Source: Aurantiacibacter xanthus (GTDB lineage Bacteria; Pseudomonadota; Alphaproteobacteria; Sphingomonadales; Sphingomonadaceae). Taken from it: 64,000 nt of DNA. Positions 48,888-53,980 of this stretch are shown piece by piece. The DNA is taken from NCBI RefSeq assembly GCF_003584015.1, contig NZ_QXFM01000114.1, forward strand, positions 1 to 64,000, written 5' to 3'. Each line of letters opens with the position of its first letter. Position 1 is the stretch's first letter. Under the pieces are notes generated by a model. It saw nothing but the letters and a program-made list of their open reading frames with translations, made no database searches and had not been told where the DNA came from. A program made the translations under genes and the position numbers.

Positions 48888-49817
48888 TTAGGTGAGAGTG
48901 AGCGTCCACTGGTCGTTGGCGACCGTGGGCAGCGGCGTGAAATCGAGCGGCCATTCGACGATGCCCTGCTGCTGCTCGTATCCGCTCGGCCGCTTCTGCT
49001 GCGCTGCCGGCACATCGAGCGTGACGATCTTCCCGGCAGCCGTGCCGTGCACCAGCTTGATTTCCTGCCGCGTGCCCGCATTGGCGATCGCGAACGGGTT
49101 GTAAGTGTCGAGCGAAACCGCCTCGACCTGCGCGCGCAGGGTCTCGGCCTTGTCGACGATCAGGATCGCCTCCTGGCCGATCAGGAACCGGCGCTGCACA
49201 TCGTTGCCGAGGTTGAGCGTCAGGTCGCGCAGGACAAAGTCGCTGCCGCCGATCGTGAAGGTCGGCGTGTTGGCGTTGGTGGCCACCTGCGGGTCGGCGA
49301 AGGCGGAATAGTCCACAGCAGGTGCCGCAGCGGTCGTCGGCACCGTGAACAGGCCGGTCATAGTGCAGCTCAGCATCGGGATGCCCTGTGCCGAGACCTT
49401 CAGCTCGGCCGTGCCGCGCGCACCAAGGATGACATGGCGGGTGGTGCCGATCGCGAAGTAAAGGCACGCGCTCTCGCCGATCCCGGTGATCGGGTTGTAG
49501 GTGACGCTGTTGCCGGGATCGATCGTCTCGGCCACGTTCATCGCGCGCAGCAGCGGCCCCCAGGCGGGCGGCGTGCCCGCCGTGCCGGAGCCGACCAGTT
49601 CAAGGTCAAAGGTCAGAACGGCATGGATACCGACCGGAATGGTGGGATTGGCACCGAAGTTCGGCTTGTCGTTCGCCCGCTCGACGTCTTCGCCCTCCAT
49701 CGGGCGCAGCGTCACGTTGCTGGCGAGGATGGCGTTGGCCGCGCCCGTCGGCACCGCATCGACGCCGTAGGATGTTTCGAGCTTCGCCAGGAACGTCTTC
49801 GATTTCCAGAACAGCAT
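48888..49817 (-). CDS. Phage major tail tube protein
   Basis: The 309-residue protein has the tail-tube N-terminus KTFLAKLETSYGVDAVPTGA, then ASNVTLRPMEGEDVERAN, IPVGIHAVLTFDLELVGSGT, GARGTAELKVSAQGIPMLSC and TYNPITGIGESACLYFAIGT. It is the tube subunit of a non-contractile tail; no sheath protein is present nearby. It lies 15 bases upstream of the chaperone gene. Confidence 0.85.
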   Translation of the reverse strand: MLFWKSKTFLAKLETSYGVDAVPTGAANAILASNVTLRPMEGEDVERANDKPNFGANPTIPVGIHAVLTFDLELVGSGTAGTPPAWGPLLRAMNVAETIDPGNSVTYNPITGIGESACLYFAIGTTRHVILGARGTAELKVSAQGIPMLSCTMTGLFTVPTTAAAPAVDYSAFADPQVATNANTPTFTIGGSDFVLRDLTLNLGNDVQRRFLIGQEAILIVDKAETLRAQVEAVSLDTYNPFAIANAGTRQEIKLVHGTAAGKIVTLDVPAAQQKRPSGYEQQQGIVEWPLDFTPLPTVANDQWTLTLT

Positions 49818-49985
49818 CTATTTGCCCTCCTCTTCGCTGTGCGTATCGGTCTGCGGTTTCGCGGCCTCGCTCGCCGTTGCCGCGTCGGCCAGCACGGCCG
49901 GGCTGTTGTCCTTCAGCGTGCCATTCTTCTGGCGCACGAAGCTACCGGCGCGCTGCGGCAGAACGGGCTTCTTGCTCTTCGTCAT
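49818..49985 (-). CDS. Small phage protein (55 residues)
   Basis: An open frame from the ATG at 49985 to a TAG at 49818 encodes 55 residues. It starts MTKSKKPVLPQRAGSFVRQK with a basic N-terminus and has an acidic Ser/Glu-rich C-terminus (THSEEEGK). Its start overlaps the terminator-like gene upstream by 4 bases (ATGA) and its stop abuts the major tail gene, so it fits the operon without gaps. Function unknown. Confidence 0.7.
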   Translation of the reverse strand: MTKSKKPVLPQRAGSFVRQKNGTLKDNSPAVLADAATASEAAKPQTDTHSEEEGK

Positions 49986-50422
49986 CGTGTGATCCTCAGT
50001 TGGTCGTTGAGCTGGAAATCGATCTGGAACACGAGCACGCCGTTCTTCGCGCCGACCAGATCGGCCTGAGCGAGCTGAAACACGCCGACCGCGTCATCCG
50101 GCCCCCATCCGGCCACTGCATCGATCACGTCGCCCACCATCGGGCTCATGTCGCGCAAGGCCTGATCGCCGCGCGGATCGCTCTGGAAGCGGTCCATCAG
50201 CACCACGGCCACCCCCTCGCTGTAATGCTGGCGAAACATGCCCGCAGCGACGTCAGCCTGCCCGCCGATCAGCCCGCCAAACGACACGAATGCGGCAGGC
50301 GTCACCTGCGGCAAGCGATCCTTCTCGACCAGGTCGGCAAAGTCGGCCGCGTTGCCGATCCGGCTCAAAACGGGGATGTGCGCAATCAGTCGCTCGCGCA
50401 CGGCATCGAGGCGCAGGATCAT
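49982..50422 (-). CDS. Mu gp37-like protein, probable tail terminator/neck
   Basis: The 146-residue protein (RERLIAHIPVLSRIGNAADF, VSFGGLIGGQADVAAGMFRQ, VVLMDRFQSDPRGDQALRDM, GVLVFQIDFQLNDQLRI) has the size, fold pattern and position of Mu gp37/tail-terminator proteins that cap the tail tube. It overlaps the DUF1320 gene by 4 bases. Confidence 0.72.
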   Translation of the reverse strand: MILRLDAVRERLIAHIPVLSRIGNAADFADLVEKDRLPQVTPAAFVSFGGLIGGQADVAAGMFRQHYSEGVAVVLMDRFQSDPRGDQALRDMSPMVGDVIDAVAGWGPDDAVGVFQLAQADLVGAKNGVLVFQIDFQLNDQLRITR

Positions 50423-50847
50423 ACAAACCCCGTCAGGTTCTCGTTGCTGAAGGGGCGCGCCCGATCGGTGGTCTTCACGCCGCCGTCGTTCCGTGCTGCA
50501 GGTTCCACGCCTTCGAGCGGCAGCCGCACCGCGCCGCTGGCGATATCGCGCAGCGTGCGCATCGCCTGCTCGTAATCCTTCACGATCTTGGCGTCGGGCT
50601 CGTAGCGGTGCAGCTTGTAGATCGCGATCGAGCTGGCGAGGTCCACCAGCATCGGCGGCACCTCGGCCAGAGGCAGGCGATACTTGCCCGCCAGATAGCC
50701 GTCGATCACCGCGTCCGCATCGATCAGCGCACGCGTCACCACCTCGGCGTCGATCGCACCGGCCGGCACCTCGCCGCGATCGGTAAGCTCGATCAGCATG
50801 CGGGTGTCGAACCGGTCTGCAAGGATGGCTTGGGTGGCGTAGGTCAT
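50419..50847 (-). CDS. DUF1320 (Mu gp36-like) head completion protein
   Basis: The 142-residue protein begins MTYATQAILADRFDTRMLIELTDRG cut here for description and continues ALIDADAVIDGYLAGKYRLP and LVDLASSIAIYKLHR. These are the DUF1320 hallmarks (helical head-tail connector, gp36 of Mu). It connects the portal vertex to the tail and precedes the gp37-like gene. Confidence 0.88.
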   Translation of the reverse strand: MTYATQAILADRFDTRMLIELTDRGEVPAGAIDAEVVTRALIDADAVIDGYLAGKYRLPLAEVPPMLVDLASSIAIYKLHRYEPDAKIVKDYEQAMRTLRDIASGAVRLPLEGVEPAARNDGGVKTTDRARPFSNENLTGFV

Positions 50848-50853
50848 GTCAGG

Positions 50854-51120
50854 CTAGGCCTTGTTCTCATCGTTCGGCAGAGCGATCCGCTCGGGGCGGA
50901 ACACGCTGCGATTGAGCGCCATGAAGCCCTGCTCTAGATGGTTGCGCGCGATCGCCAGCCAGCGGTTATCGTAGCGCGTTTCAGTGATGCCGATATCGAA
51001 CATCACGTCGATCTCGCGCAGCAGCCGCTCTTCCACTTCCTTGAAGTGGTTGACCAGCTCGATCCGGTCAGCGCTCTGGTTCGTGTAACCGGCGACGGGG
51101 AGGGGAGCACGATCAGCCAT
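50854..51120 (-). CDS. Acb2/Tad1 hairpin-domain protein, probable anti-CBASS / cyclic nucleotide sponge
   Basis: The 88-residue protein (ATG at 51120) has a helix RIELVNHFKEVEERLLREID followed after a turn by YDNRWLAIARNHLEQGFMAL and NRSVFRP. This two-helix hairpin with the (D/N)xRWLAIARxxLxxGFMALxRxV motif is what I know from the Acb2/Tad1 family. Family members bind cyclic di- and trinucleotides and so block CBASS (and related) defence. It lies inside the head-tail gene block between the HHH protein (8-base overlap) and DUF1320, so it would be made late. A purely structural role cannot be excluded. Confidence 0.75.
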   Translation of the reverse strand: MADRAPLPVAGYTNQSADRIELVNHFKEVEERLLREIDVMFDIGITETRYDNRWLAIARNHLEQGFMALNRSVFRPERIALPNDENKA

Positions 51121-51595
51121 GGTCTTCGCCCTCAATAACGACGCTCAGGCGCGGATCGGTGTAGATCGCGTCGAACTCCGCCTCATGAAGCTCATCGAGC
51201 GGGATGCGCACCGGCTCCGCGCCGAACAGGCGACCAGCACGGCGGCGACCACGCTTGGGACCGGTGACCACGATCGACTTCGCTTCGTCCTGAGTTGACG
51301 GTGGCGGTGGCGGTGGCGGTGGCGAAGGAGGTGCTGGCGACGGCGCAGGCGTGGGAGCGGCCTGAGGCTCCACAGTCGACGCGGGTGTCGATGTTGGCGT
51401 GGCCGAGGTCAGCACCTTGGCCGCATCGATCCACGCGACAAGCTCATCGGCGAAGTTCGCCAGGCTCTCGACCTTGGCCAGCTCCTTGGCATCGGCGGCG
51501 GCAAGCGCCGGGACACCATTGATCCCGGCCGCCTGCAGCTTCTTCTCCGTCGCCGGGCCGATCCCGGCGATATCGGTCAGCTTATGCTCGCCCAT
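51113..51595 (-). CDS. Phage protein with helix-hairpin-helix domain and polyproline linker (Mu gp35 position)
   Basis: The 160-residue protein (ATG at 51595) has a helix-hairpin-helix DNA-binding motif (LTDIAGIGPATEKKLQAAGI) in its first 60 residues. A Thr/Pro linker including eight consecutive Pro follows (about residues 80-108), then a small C-terminal domain (RAGRLFGAEPVRIPLDELHE, IYTDPRLSVVIEG). It occupies the place of Mu gp35 between the major head protein and gp36. It may contact DNA at the connector. I do not know a characterised homologue. Confidence 0.7.
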   Translation of the reverse strand: MGEHKLTDIAGIGPATEKKLQAAGINGVPALAAADAKELAKVESLANFADELVAWIDAAKVLTSATPTSTPASTVEPQAAPTPAPSPAPPSPPPPPPPPSTQDEAKSIVVTGPKRGRRRAGRLFGAEPVRIPLDELHEAEFDAIYTDPRLSVVIEGEDHG

Positions 51596-51597
51596 GA

Positions 51598-52497
51598 TCA
51601 GGCCAGCCACGGCACGACCAGCAGCTCGGCCGTGCCCTTCCATTCGTTGGTTTCGCCACCGGCGGCGTTCTCGCTGTTGAGCAGCTTGAGGCCAGCGCTT
51701 TCGAGCGAGGGCGGCACCACCAGAAGGTTGCCCTTGAGGCCCAGCGGGCGGCCATAGTCGCCCTTCATGCTCGAAAGGGCAGCGCGGGCCGTGCCATAGT
51801 TGGCGGCGTTGAGCGTCTGTTTGGAGCCCCAGGCCATCTGCCAGAAGCCGAAGCCGAAGTTCATCCGGGCATCGACGCCGTAGATGAACTCCTTGCGATC
51901 GAAGACGTTGTCGTCCGTCTCCTTGTCCTTCGCCACCAGCAAGCCGAAGTCGCGCCGCACCTGCTTGATCAGCGGCTTGAGCGAGCGCGAGGTGTCGAGC
52001 AGGAACCATGGCGTACCAGAGCCGCCGTCGGTATTGGCGACCGATTGCGGCTCACCCGCCGCGTCGAGCACCGGGTGATCGGTGTCGAAGAAATTCTGGC
52101 CGTCGTAGCATTCGGTGGTGAAGCCTGCCTTCAGCAGGTCCCACACCATCTGCTCGGGATCGAGCACGGTGGCCTCGCCGATGCCTTCGAACAGCGTGGC
52201 ATAGTGGCCGAGATTGTCGGTCTCGATGTCGTCCTTGTCGACACCGATGGTCAGCTCGAACGCCTTCTCCTTGATCGCATAGTCATGCTCGGAGATGTTC
52301 TGGACGACGCGATCGCCGATCCATTCGCGGACCTTGGGCATCTTGCCCAGCCAGCCGTACTTCTGCTCCTTCTGCGTTGCACGCACGACGGTAGCGATGC
52401 GCTTGGCCATGGCTGCAGGTGCGCCATCGATGCCCCGCTGCATGGCGGCCGAATAGCCGGTGCGGAGCGCTGCCAGATTGGCACTGTTGATCTTCAT
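51598..52497 (-). CDS. Mu-like major head (capsid) protein, gpT family
   Basis: The 299-residue protein starts MKINSANLAALRTGYSAAMQ and has MAKRIATVVRATQKEQKYGW, MPKVREWIGDRVVQNISEHD, YAIKEKAFELTIGVDKDDIE, FDTDHPVLD and a GLKGNLLVVPPSLE strand. These are characteristic of Mu gpT capsid proteins (HK97-like fold). AAGGGG precedes the ATG. Confidence 0.93.
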   Translation of the reverse strand: MKINSANLAALRTGYSAAMQRGIDGAPAAMAKRIATVVRATQKEQKYGWLGKMPKVREWIGDRVVQNISEHDYAIKEKAFELTIGVDKDDIETDNLGHYATLFEGIGEATVLDPEQMVWDLLKAGFTTECYDGQNFFDTDHPVLDAAGEPQSVANTDGGSGTPWFLLDTSRSLKPLIKQVRRDFGLLVAKDKETDDNVFDRKEFIYGVDARMNFGFGFWQMAWGSKQTLNAANYGTARAALSSMKGDYGRPLGLKGNLLVVPPSLESAGLKLLNSENAAGGETNEWKGTAELLVVPWLA

Positions 52498-52511: not shown

Positions 52512-52916
52512 TTAGATTTCGATCCAGACGCCCTGGGCGTCCACATCGTAGATCTTCCCGGCAGCCGAACGCGTGTTCGTGCCGTTGGTGAGCGCGACGG
52601 TTTCATCGTCGACGACGTAAGCCGTCTTGCCGATGTCCTCCGGGCCGATTTCGTCCGCCGCCGCGCTGTTGCCGAAGCGGTAGACGCCACGGCGCACGTT
52701 AATGGTCTTGTCGCCAGCAGCGCCCGCGCTGTTGTCGACGTACTCCTCGGCGCGGCCGACGGCGGTCAGCGTGGTTGCCGTGGAACCGGGCACGGCGGTG
52801 CCAGCGGCGTTGAGGCACACCAGGGCACCGGCATAGATCGTCGTCGCGGCGGCGACGTTGAACTGGCGGAGATCGCCCTCCTTGCGGGGCGTGTTGCGGT
52901 CAGCGGCAAGAGCCAT
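52512..52916 (-). CDS. Phage head decoration / structural cement protein
   Basis: The 134-residue beta-rich protein (RKEGDLRQFNVAAATTIYAG, ALVCLNAAGTAVPGS, GAAGDKTINVRRGVYRFGNS, DIGKTAYVVDDETVAL) resembles capsid decoration proteins found between the protease/scaffold and major head genes of Mu-like phages. One-base overlap (TGATG) with the protease stop. Confidence 0.75.
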   Translation of the reverse strand: MALAADRNTPRKEGDLRQFNVAAATTIYAGALVCLNAAGTAVPGSTATTLTAVGRAEEYVDNSAGAAGDKTINVRRGVYRFGNSAAADEIGPEDIGKTAYVVDDETVALTNGTNTRSAAGKIYDVDAQGVWIEI

Positions 52917-53506
52917 CAGAGGGCCTCCTCGTTCTCGCCCAGCTCAGCGGCACGGGCTTTCTTGAAGCCTTCGGGATCGATGCCCATCAGCGCGATGGCC
53001 TGAGCGTCGGCGTCGTCGAGTTCGGCGGATCGGGCAGGCTTGCTGCCGCCAAGGTTGATCCGGCCCCCAAGCGCGGGCTTGGCGCCGATCAGCTTCTCGG
53101 TCCGCGCCGGGTTTTCCATGTGCATGGCGATGTAGTCGTCACGCATGGCCTTCACGCCGGGGCGTCCCTCGGCGATCGCACTGTCGACAAAGGCCGTTGC
53201 GGCGGTGCGGGCCTGAGCGGCCTCCATTTCGTCGAGCTTGGTGTGGGCGGCGTCGAGCCGCGACTGCAGCGCCGTGATCGTGCCGTCGTTGCCGTCATCG
53301 GCCGACAACTTGCCGATCCCGGCAATGATCGTTTCGGCGCTCGCCCCATCGGCGAGGCCCAGAGCCTTGCCGATCGGCAAGAGTGCAGACTGGACCGCCT
53401 CTTCGGTGGTTGCGCTCAGCGCCTTTTTCATCGCCGCTGCGACATCATCGTCGCTGGCGTTCTCATCGAGGCCGAGGGCGGCGATGAGCATCATCTTCCA
53501 GTCCAT
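52916..53506 (-). CDS. Nested scaffold protein (Mu gpZ equivalent), in-frame internal start in gpI
   Basis: An internal ATG at 53506 (MDWKMMLIAALGLDENASDD) is preceded by a perfect AGGAGG at 53515-53520 with 8-base spacing, much better than the site of the full gene. Translation from it yields the 196-residue C-terminal part alone, helical and lacking the protease residues. Mu makes its scaffold gpZ from an internal start in gene I in the same way. Confidence 0.75.
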   Translation of the reverse strand: MDWKMMLIAALGLDENASDDDVAAAMKKALSATTEEAVQSALLPIGKALGLADGASAETIIAGIGKLSADDGNDGTITALQSRLDAAHTKLDEMEAAQARTAATAFVDSAIAEGRPGVKAMRDDYIAMHMENPARTEKLIGAKPALGGRINLGGSKPARSAELDDADAQAIALMGIDPEGFKKARAAELGENEEAL

Positions 53507-53980
53507 GCTGGTTTCCTCCTGGTTAAGGGCGGTGAGCCCTTCGAGATTGGGTTGGTTGACGAGGCTGGCGCGCCGGATGGCGACAATCCGCTTGTCCTTG
53601 GTGTGCGCGATCACCGGTGAAATGCCGGAATATGCCTTTTCGCGGCGCAGCTGGCGGCCAGCGTCGTTCCACTCGACCTCGCCCCAGATACCGTCCTCGC
53701 GCAGCTGCAGTGCCACGATCCAGCCGCGTGCCGGAGCGGGAAGCCCCTTGGGCGCGGCAAGATCAGTGGAGTGGTTTTCATCCAGCACCAGGCGTCCGCC
53801 CGGCGCGAGGCTTTTCGACATCAGCGCATGATAGTCCTCCACCACATAAGGTCCGCGACGGTCGGCAGTGTTGACCACGCCCCCGGCCGGAAGCAGGTGG
53901 ACCCACTCCTTGCCGGTTTCGTCGCTCGGTTCGCCCAAGGCGAATGCCGAACACAGCGCGATCTGATTGCTCGTTCCCAT
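52916..53980 (-). CDS. Mu-like head maturation protease, gpI family
   Basis: The 354-residue protein has an N-terminal protease half: EWVHLLPAGGVVNTADRRGP, DENHSTDLAAPKGLPAPARG and AYSGISPVIAHTKDKRIVAI match Mu gpI, with the catalytic His in ENHS and Ser in YSGIS. A C-terminal scaffold half (DWKMMLIAALGLDENASDDD, helical) follows. The start ATG at 53980 lacks a good ribosome binding site. A second, strong start lies inside the gene at 53506. Confidence 0.92.
   Translation of the reverse strand: MGTSNQIALCSAFALGEPSDETGKEWVHLLPAGGVVNTADRRGPYVVEDYHALMSKSLAPGGRLVLDENHSTDLAAPKGLPAPARGWIVALQLREDGIWGEVEWNDAGRQLRREKAYSGISPVIAHTKDKRIVAIRRASLVNQPNLEGLTALNQEETSMDWKMMLIAALGLDENASDDDVAAAMKKALSATTEEAVQSALLPIGKALGLADGASAETIIAGIGKLSADDGNDGTITALQSRLDAAHTKLDEMEAAQARTAATAFVDSAIAEGRPGVKAMRDDYIAMHMENPARTEKLIGAKPALGGRINLGGSKPARSAELDDADAQAIALMGIDPEGFKKARAAELGENEEAL

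Follow-up and report, generated by a model that had tools for sequence, protein, structure and literature searches.

The window analysed here (64,000 nucleotides of Aurantiacibacter xanthus, contig NZ_QXFM01000114.1, positions 1 to 64,000) carries on its minus strand, among the head and tail genes of a Mu-like prophage, a small gene (50854..51120) coding for an Acb2-type hairpin protein of 88 residues, which on its match to Pfam PF24729, PDB profile matches, an AlphaFold2 model and Foldseek comparisons is a predicted cyclic-oligonucleotide sponge, that is, a protein that would act against cyclic-oligonucleotide-based anti-phage signalling systems (CBASS). The open reading frame, acb2 in what follows, starts with an ATG, and the motifs RWLAIAR and GFMALNR lie at residues 53-59 and 65-71; coordinates, length and both motifs had been given by a first-pass annotation and are all present in the sequence. 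An alternative TTG start five codons upstream would extend the protein to 93 residues, the ATG being preferred because relatives begin near it. In a codon test against three relatives (53/84, 54/78 and 57/84 identical residues), third-position differences exceeded those at first or second positions 1.6 to 2.7 times (39 versus 21/21, 38 versus 14/18 and 32 versus 15/20), and this pattern is that of a selected coding gene.

The protein matches PF24729 (Acb2_Tad1_hairpin) with 61.5 bits (cut-off 27, E 8.8e-17) over the complete profile (1-58 of 58), and the NCBIfam and PADLOC 2023 scans returned no match for it. In PHROGs the top match was phrog_717 (E 2.6e-13), to which no function is assigned there. 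A single-sequence search of the PDB already recovered the Acb2 protein p26 (E 5.8e-4 and 6.5e-4), together with a weak match to T4 Vs.4 (0.25), and with a 49-sequence profile these matches reached 7.9e-11 and 8.5e-11 for p26 (8h2j/8ixz) and 1.5e-6 for Vs.4 (7uq2); up to E 10, this profile found three distinct sequences in the PDB, all of them Acb2, and nothing else. The proposal that the gene belongs to the Acb2/Tad1-hairpin sponge family is thus borne out by a significant hidden Markov model match, with which the fold comparison agrees, and we consider membership of the Acb2 family to be beyond reasonable doubt.

The AlphaFold2 model, built from the 49-sequence alignment as a monomer only, has a mean pLDDT (predicted local confidence) of 88.1 and a pTM (predicted template modelling score) of 0.70, and is all-helical, with two long antiparallel helices (17-46 and 52-74), a short one (82-86) and no strand, the hairpin beginning at residue 17. 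Of the 215 matches that Foldseek gave for it in the PDB up to E 10, three had an E of 0.001 or less; ranks 1-9 were all Acb2 or Vs.4 chains (probability 1.00, template modelling (TM) scores 0.66-0.71, root-mean-square deviation 3.6-4.1), while the probability fell to 0.23 at rank 10. In the Foldseek viral library the top match was L7TP98 (TM 0.82, 43% identity), unnamed there, and several weaker rows were labelled as Acb2/Tad1 hairpin proteins. The protein is Acb2-type and not Tad1-type, being a bare hairpin that does not contain the Tad1 beta-sheet domain. Membership of Tad1 itself was considered and rejected, as that domain is missing from the model and the PDB profile search (E up to 10) gave no Tad1 match.

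Residues Y12, K27 and R53 align with Y11, K26 and R67 of the Acb2 of phage PaMx33, of which K26 and R67 presumably have roles in the ligand pocket. Furthermore, F74 aligns with the phenylalanine in the RAVFQPE stretch of Vs.4, which would be F82 if one extra residue is allowed for in the PDB chain. According to one report on T4 Acb2, F82 stacks on the bound cyclic dinucleotide and Y8 is required for binding (PMC12657218). We followed these positions in a set of 126 loci (the best 80 of 180 viral contigs, 40 genome contigs, five phage records and one genome of the same family), 125 of which carry the protein according to our own profile, the exception being L145. Y12, K27, R53 and F74 are retained in 121, 121, 122 and 122 of the 125, respectively, and all four together in 115. 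The conservation of Y12 is partly built in because the patterns used to retrieve the loci cover the Y12 and F66-N70 stretches, whereas K27, R53 and F74 lie outside them. In RcapMu44 (L002 6001-6291) the position of R53 is occupied by isoleucine, while its near twin RcWaterboi retains the arginine.

With respect to the neighbourhood, all the genes scanned around acb2 are on the same strand and all are Mu-like. Upstream there is a gp35-like gene (51113..51595, 160 residues) whose product has an N-terminal helix-hairpin-helix (HHH_5, 30.8 bits) and a weak C-terminal FluMu_N match (E 0.0027, below the cut-off), preceded by the genes for the major head subunit gpT (51598..52497; PF10124, 391 bits) and the I protease/scaffold (52916..53980; PF10123, 141 bits). 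Downstream follow a gene of the Mu Gp36 family (50419..50847; PF07030, 123.4 bits), a tail terminator (49982..50422; PF23840, 85.5 bits), a tail tube gene (48888..49817; PF18906, 50.7 bits) and, beyond it, a DUF1799 gene, so that the order reads protease I, gpT, gp35-like, acb2, gp36, tail terminator, tail tube, DUF1799. The start of acb2 overlaps the end of the gp35-like gene by eight bases (51113..51120). The first-pass annotation had placed the gene in the structural block with overlapping starts, and this stands on the upstream side only, since on the downstream side six bases separate the acb2 stop from the next ATG (50847) and the two genes nearly abut. The MuF and virion-morphogenesis genes of the prophage were identified through their similarity to RcapMu, and the open reading frame list, in which the early genes were named by eye, suggests that the prophage extends over about 38.2-75.1 kb of the 114 kb contig.

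The place occupied by acb2, directly upstream of gp36, recurs among its relatives. In 45 of the 125 loci gp36 lies directly downstream, adjoining in 34 and in 11 at a greater distance, reaching about 350 bases; no gp36 was found nearby in 77, and three loci are cut off. These 45 represent 41 distinct domain sequences; the copy in the window (L026) is among the 45, and L019 and L106 are identical in sequence. The gene order of the window's prophage is shared by RcapMu and RcWaterboi and, among phages of gammaproteobacteria, by AV002 and JBD67. Relatives outside head blocks occur in Caulobacter, Brevundimonas and Rhizobium phages and in PaMx33, those of Caulobacter and Brevundimonas phages adjoining DNA polymerase or helicase genes. 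A class sample of 385 genomes gave 29 gp36 places in 27 genomes, and with our own profiles a hairpin was seen beside gp36 in only one of them, the window's own. As these profiles missed divergent hairpins, PF24729 was run over all 26 other gp36 genomes; it matched in four of these at E up to 0.001, of which G538 and G659 have the hairpin next to gp36 and G772 and G563 have it elsewhere in the genome, so that 3 of the 29 places have a recognised hairpin and 26 do not. The two additional proteins are divergent PF24729 hairpins directly upstream of gp36 (L155 1185-1478, 62.5 bits, and L159 1914-2132, 27.7 bits). On the other hand, all four viral contigs found through the window's gp36 carry a hairpin in the slot, the prophage of the window itself counting as one of the four. 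The gene looks like accessory cargo that has been long retained in some lineages and is absent from most. Our literature search found no paper joining Acb2 with Mu-like or transposable phages or prophages.

The first-pass annotation had also pointed to the host genome as the place where a CBASS might be found, and one is indeed there. The assembly (146 contigs, 99.86% complete) contains one SAVED gene (E 2.4e-45) and one clear CD-NTase gene, both on contig C73, in an operon of overlapping genes for a CD-NTase (469 residues), an E2-like protein (231 residues) and an HNH-SAVED protein (385 residues), with matches to the CD-NTase, E2 and HNH-SAVED models of PADLOC. The top PDB matches were 7ljn (E 3.4e-48) and the CdnG 8hsb for the CD-NTase, 8hsb_B (E 2e-7) for the E2 and 7rwk (E 4.2e-134) for the effector, and the motifs GSS...DEFDID and HI/NLMLLC/HH are present in the operon proteins. 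Judged from sequence kinship, the operon is a CdnG-E2-HNH-SAVED (Cap5) CBASS. The entry 7RWK is AsCap5 of Asticcacaulis, from a type II (short) CdnG-Cap5 system, and is reported to be activated by 3',2'-cyclic GMP-AMP (3',2'-cGAMP; PMC8568899), a molecule that Acb2 is reported to sequester (PMC12043709). The product of the host CD-NTase is predicted from kinship only, and the pairing could fail if this enzyme makes another dinucleotide. Next to the operon, C73 bears a PD-Lambda-2_B-like defence gene (L011 6976-8244, PADLOC E 1.3e-111) and, just past the effector gene, a gene with a phospholipase domain like that of Tle1 of the type VI secretion system (L011 2509-3327; PF09994, 239 bits). The contig also has genes that, judged by eye, resemble those of transposases and of conjugation.

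In a wider comparison, SMODS matches over the cut-off were found in 7 of the 40 genomes with a relative and in 14 of the 384 genomes of the class sample excluding the window's (15/385 with it; Fisher p 0.0017), two sets that are not matched for taxonomy, genome size or source, and the enrichment of CBASS alongside the sponge is weak. Single SMODS matches need checking, because two weak ones in the window's genome proved to be HEPN-nucleotidyltransferases: these are two similar nucleotidyltransferase and HEPN proteins (L008 1408-2346 and L009 1342-2331, on C116 and C130) that score near the SMODS cut-off and are not CBASS cyclases.

It is very likely that acb2 encodes an Acb2-type sponge, as predicted from sequence and model, and several observations weigh against this. 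The identity to PaMx33 Acb2 is only about 30% and the inter-helix loop is shorter, the TM-scores and deviations given above are moderate, and for these reasons the choice of ligand could differ. The PF24729 name also covers many hairpins whose function has never been tested, and in a sample of the host's family, in which PF24729 was found in 10 and SAVED in 11 of 397 genomes, the two coincide only in the window's genome (1/397; Fisher p 0.25).

A different explanation would be that the protein is a virion or assembly part, such as a connector-type head-tail helper, that merely has the hairpin fold. Its position between the gp35-like and gp36 genes, with the eight-base overlap upstream, its recurrence there in 45 of 125 loci and the hairpin in all four viral contigs that share the window's gp36 speak for such a role, but in the class sample 26 of the 29 gp36 places are without a recognised hairpin and 77 of the 125 relatives lie outside such blocks, for example beside DNA polymerase or helicase genes, so this explanation is disfavoured and we regard it as improbable. 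About equally improbable is a sponge for another nucleotide signal, either the glycocyclic ADP-ribose of Thoeris or one yet undescribed. It is true that PF24729 unites Acb2 with the Tad1 hairpin and that in Rhizobium phage RHph_X2_26 (L004 4444-4983) the gene immediately preceding the Acb2 relative is annotated as TIR domain-containing protein; however, the window protein is modelled as all-helical, missing the beta-sheet domain described for Tad1, no Tad1 chain appeared in the PDB profile search, and neither ThsB_TIR nor mCpol (Panoptes) gave a match in the host genome. Prophages tend to decay, and acb2 could be a remnant carried along in a dormant one, but its frame and those of the flanking genes are open, the pocket-aligned residues are retained and the differences are biased to third positions, which makes decay the least probable of these alternatives.

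Considering acb2 as a sponge gene, its place raises the question of how the slot was filled. In a tree of about 81 columns and 90 rows, drawn with 40 of the 77 non-slot loci and omitting the IMG/VR copy of the window, the proteins of JBD67 and AV002 fall together with that of PaMx33 and are separate from the alphaproteobacterial ones (branch support 94), and slot and non-slot members are intermixed and the forks poorly resolved. The slot state changes 17 times on this tree, compared to a mean of 30.6 when shuffled, although only two changes are forced by well-supported branches. In topology tests, which additionally omitted L144 and L155, a single clade for all slot members was marginally rejected (approximately unbiased test, p-AU 0.048) and one for the alphaproteobacterial slot members was not (p-AU 0.165). 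It is likely, then, that the slot was filled from two origins, and more are possible. Escape from CBASS has been connected with the capsid gene. We put forward tentatively, and think it rather less probable than otherwise, that the gp35-like/gp36 gap is a recurrent home for sponges, filled repeatedly (by the alphaproteobacterial subfamily, that of JBD67 and the divergent L155/L159), in which the dose of sponge would be tied to that of capsid, the antidote rising with the suspected trigger. If the slot was filled independently, linked expression of sponge and capsid would seem to be favoured.

Acb2 is described as a hexamer that takes up three dinucleotides at the contacts of its protomers, has a distinct site for trinucleotides, and is active during induction and not during lysogeny (PMC12043709). 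The window protein would likewise assemble as a hexamer, and upon prophage induction or infection would be co-transcribed with the head and tail genes; expression would be late, to judge from the gene order, and its level, the gene lying behind gpT, would rise alongside the capsid. It would then bind, without cutting them, cyclic dinucleotides between its protomers and perhaps, at the trimer interface, cyclic trinucleotides as well, and CBASS effectors would be held off until virions are complete. Action on the resident CBASS is plausible: in this host the sponge would probably face the CdnG-E2-Cap5 operon, with 3',2'-cGAMP as its probable ligand. The coexistence of a prophage sponge and a CdnG-Cap5 operon in one genome makes this specific ligand testable.

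Although the type of protein is known, this work would add an alphaproteobacterial Mu-like branch to the anti-CBASS sponges, and its recurring place in the phage is more telling than the protein type. Like the Acb2 of PaMx33/PaP2 (p26; PDB 8h2j, 8h2x and 8ixz), the window protein belongs to PF24729, has about 90 residues, aligns at the Y-K-R positions and shows the same fold by Foldseek; it differs in sequence (23 of 78 aligned residues identical), in its shorter inter-helix loop, in a different C-terminal stretch and in its context, as PaMx33 acb2 adjoins replication genes and a terminator instead of lying in a Mu-like head block. Vs.4 (7uq2) sits in the context of phage T4 and has a longer inter-helix loop, with the aligned aromatic of RSVF/RAVF in common and the profile (1.5e-6) and Foldseek (1.00) support given above. 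Tad1, in turn, shares the hairpin name of PF24729 and not the bare-hairpin architecture. The name 'NAD/FAD-utilizing enzyme', which several Pseudomonas phage records give to the Acb2 gene or to the gene beside it, is probably an annotation error. In the case of the Mu-like Pseudomonas phage JBD67, gp38 (PF24729, 59.6 bits) occupies this slot as well, following the capsid region and a small gene and preceding a PF07030 gene, but it has a much longer loop, is identical to the window protein in 24 of 78 aligned residues and falls with PaMx33 in the tree; deletion of its acb2 is reported to leave the phage CBASS-sensitive (PMC13083879). A further parallel is found in the Rhodobacter capsulatus Mu-like phages RcapMu44 and RcWaterboi, whose gp42 proteins are in the same slot, belong to the same subfamily and are 46-50% identical to the window protein, with a longer C-terminal tail. 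The depositor of the RcapMu44 record noted a protein 'similar to cyclic-nucleotide binding domain'. The present assignment turns a gene that had no name in RcapMu and other model phages into a testable counter-defence gene.
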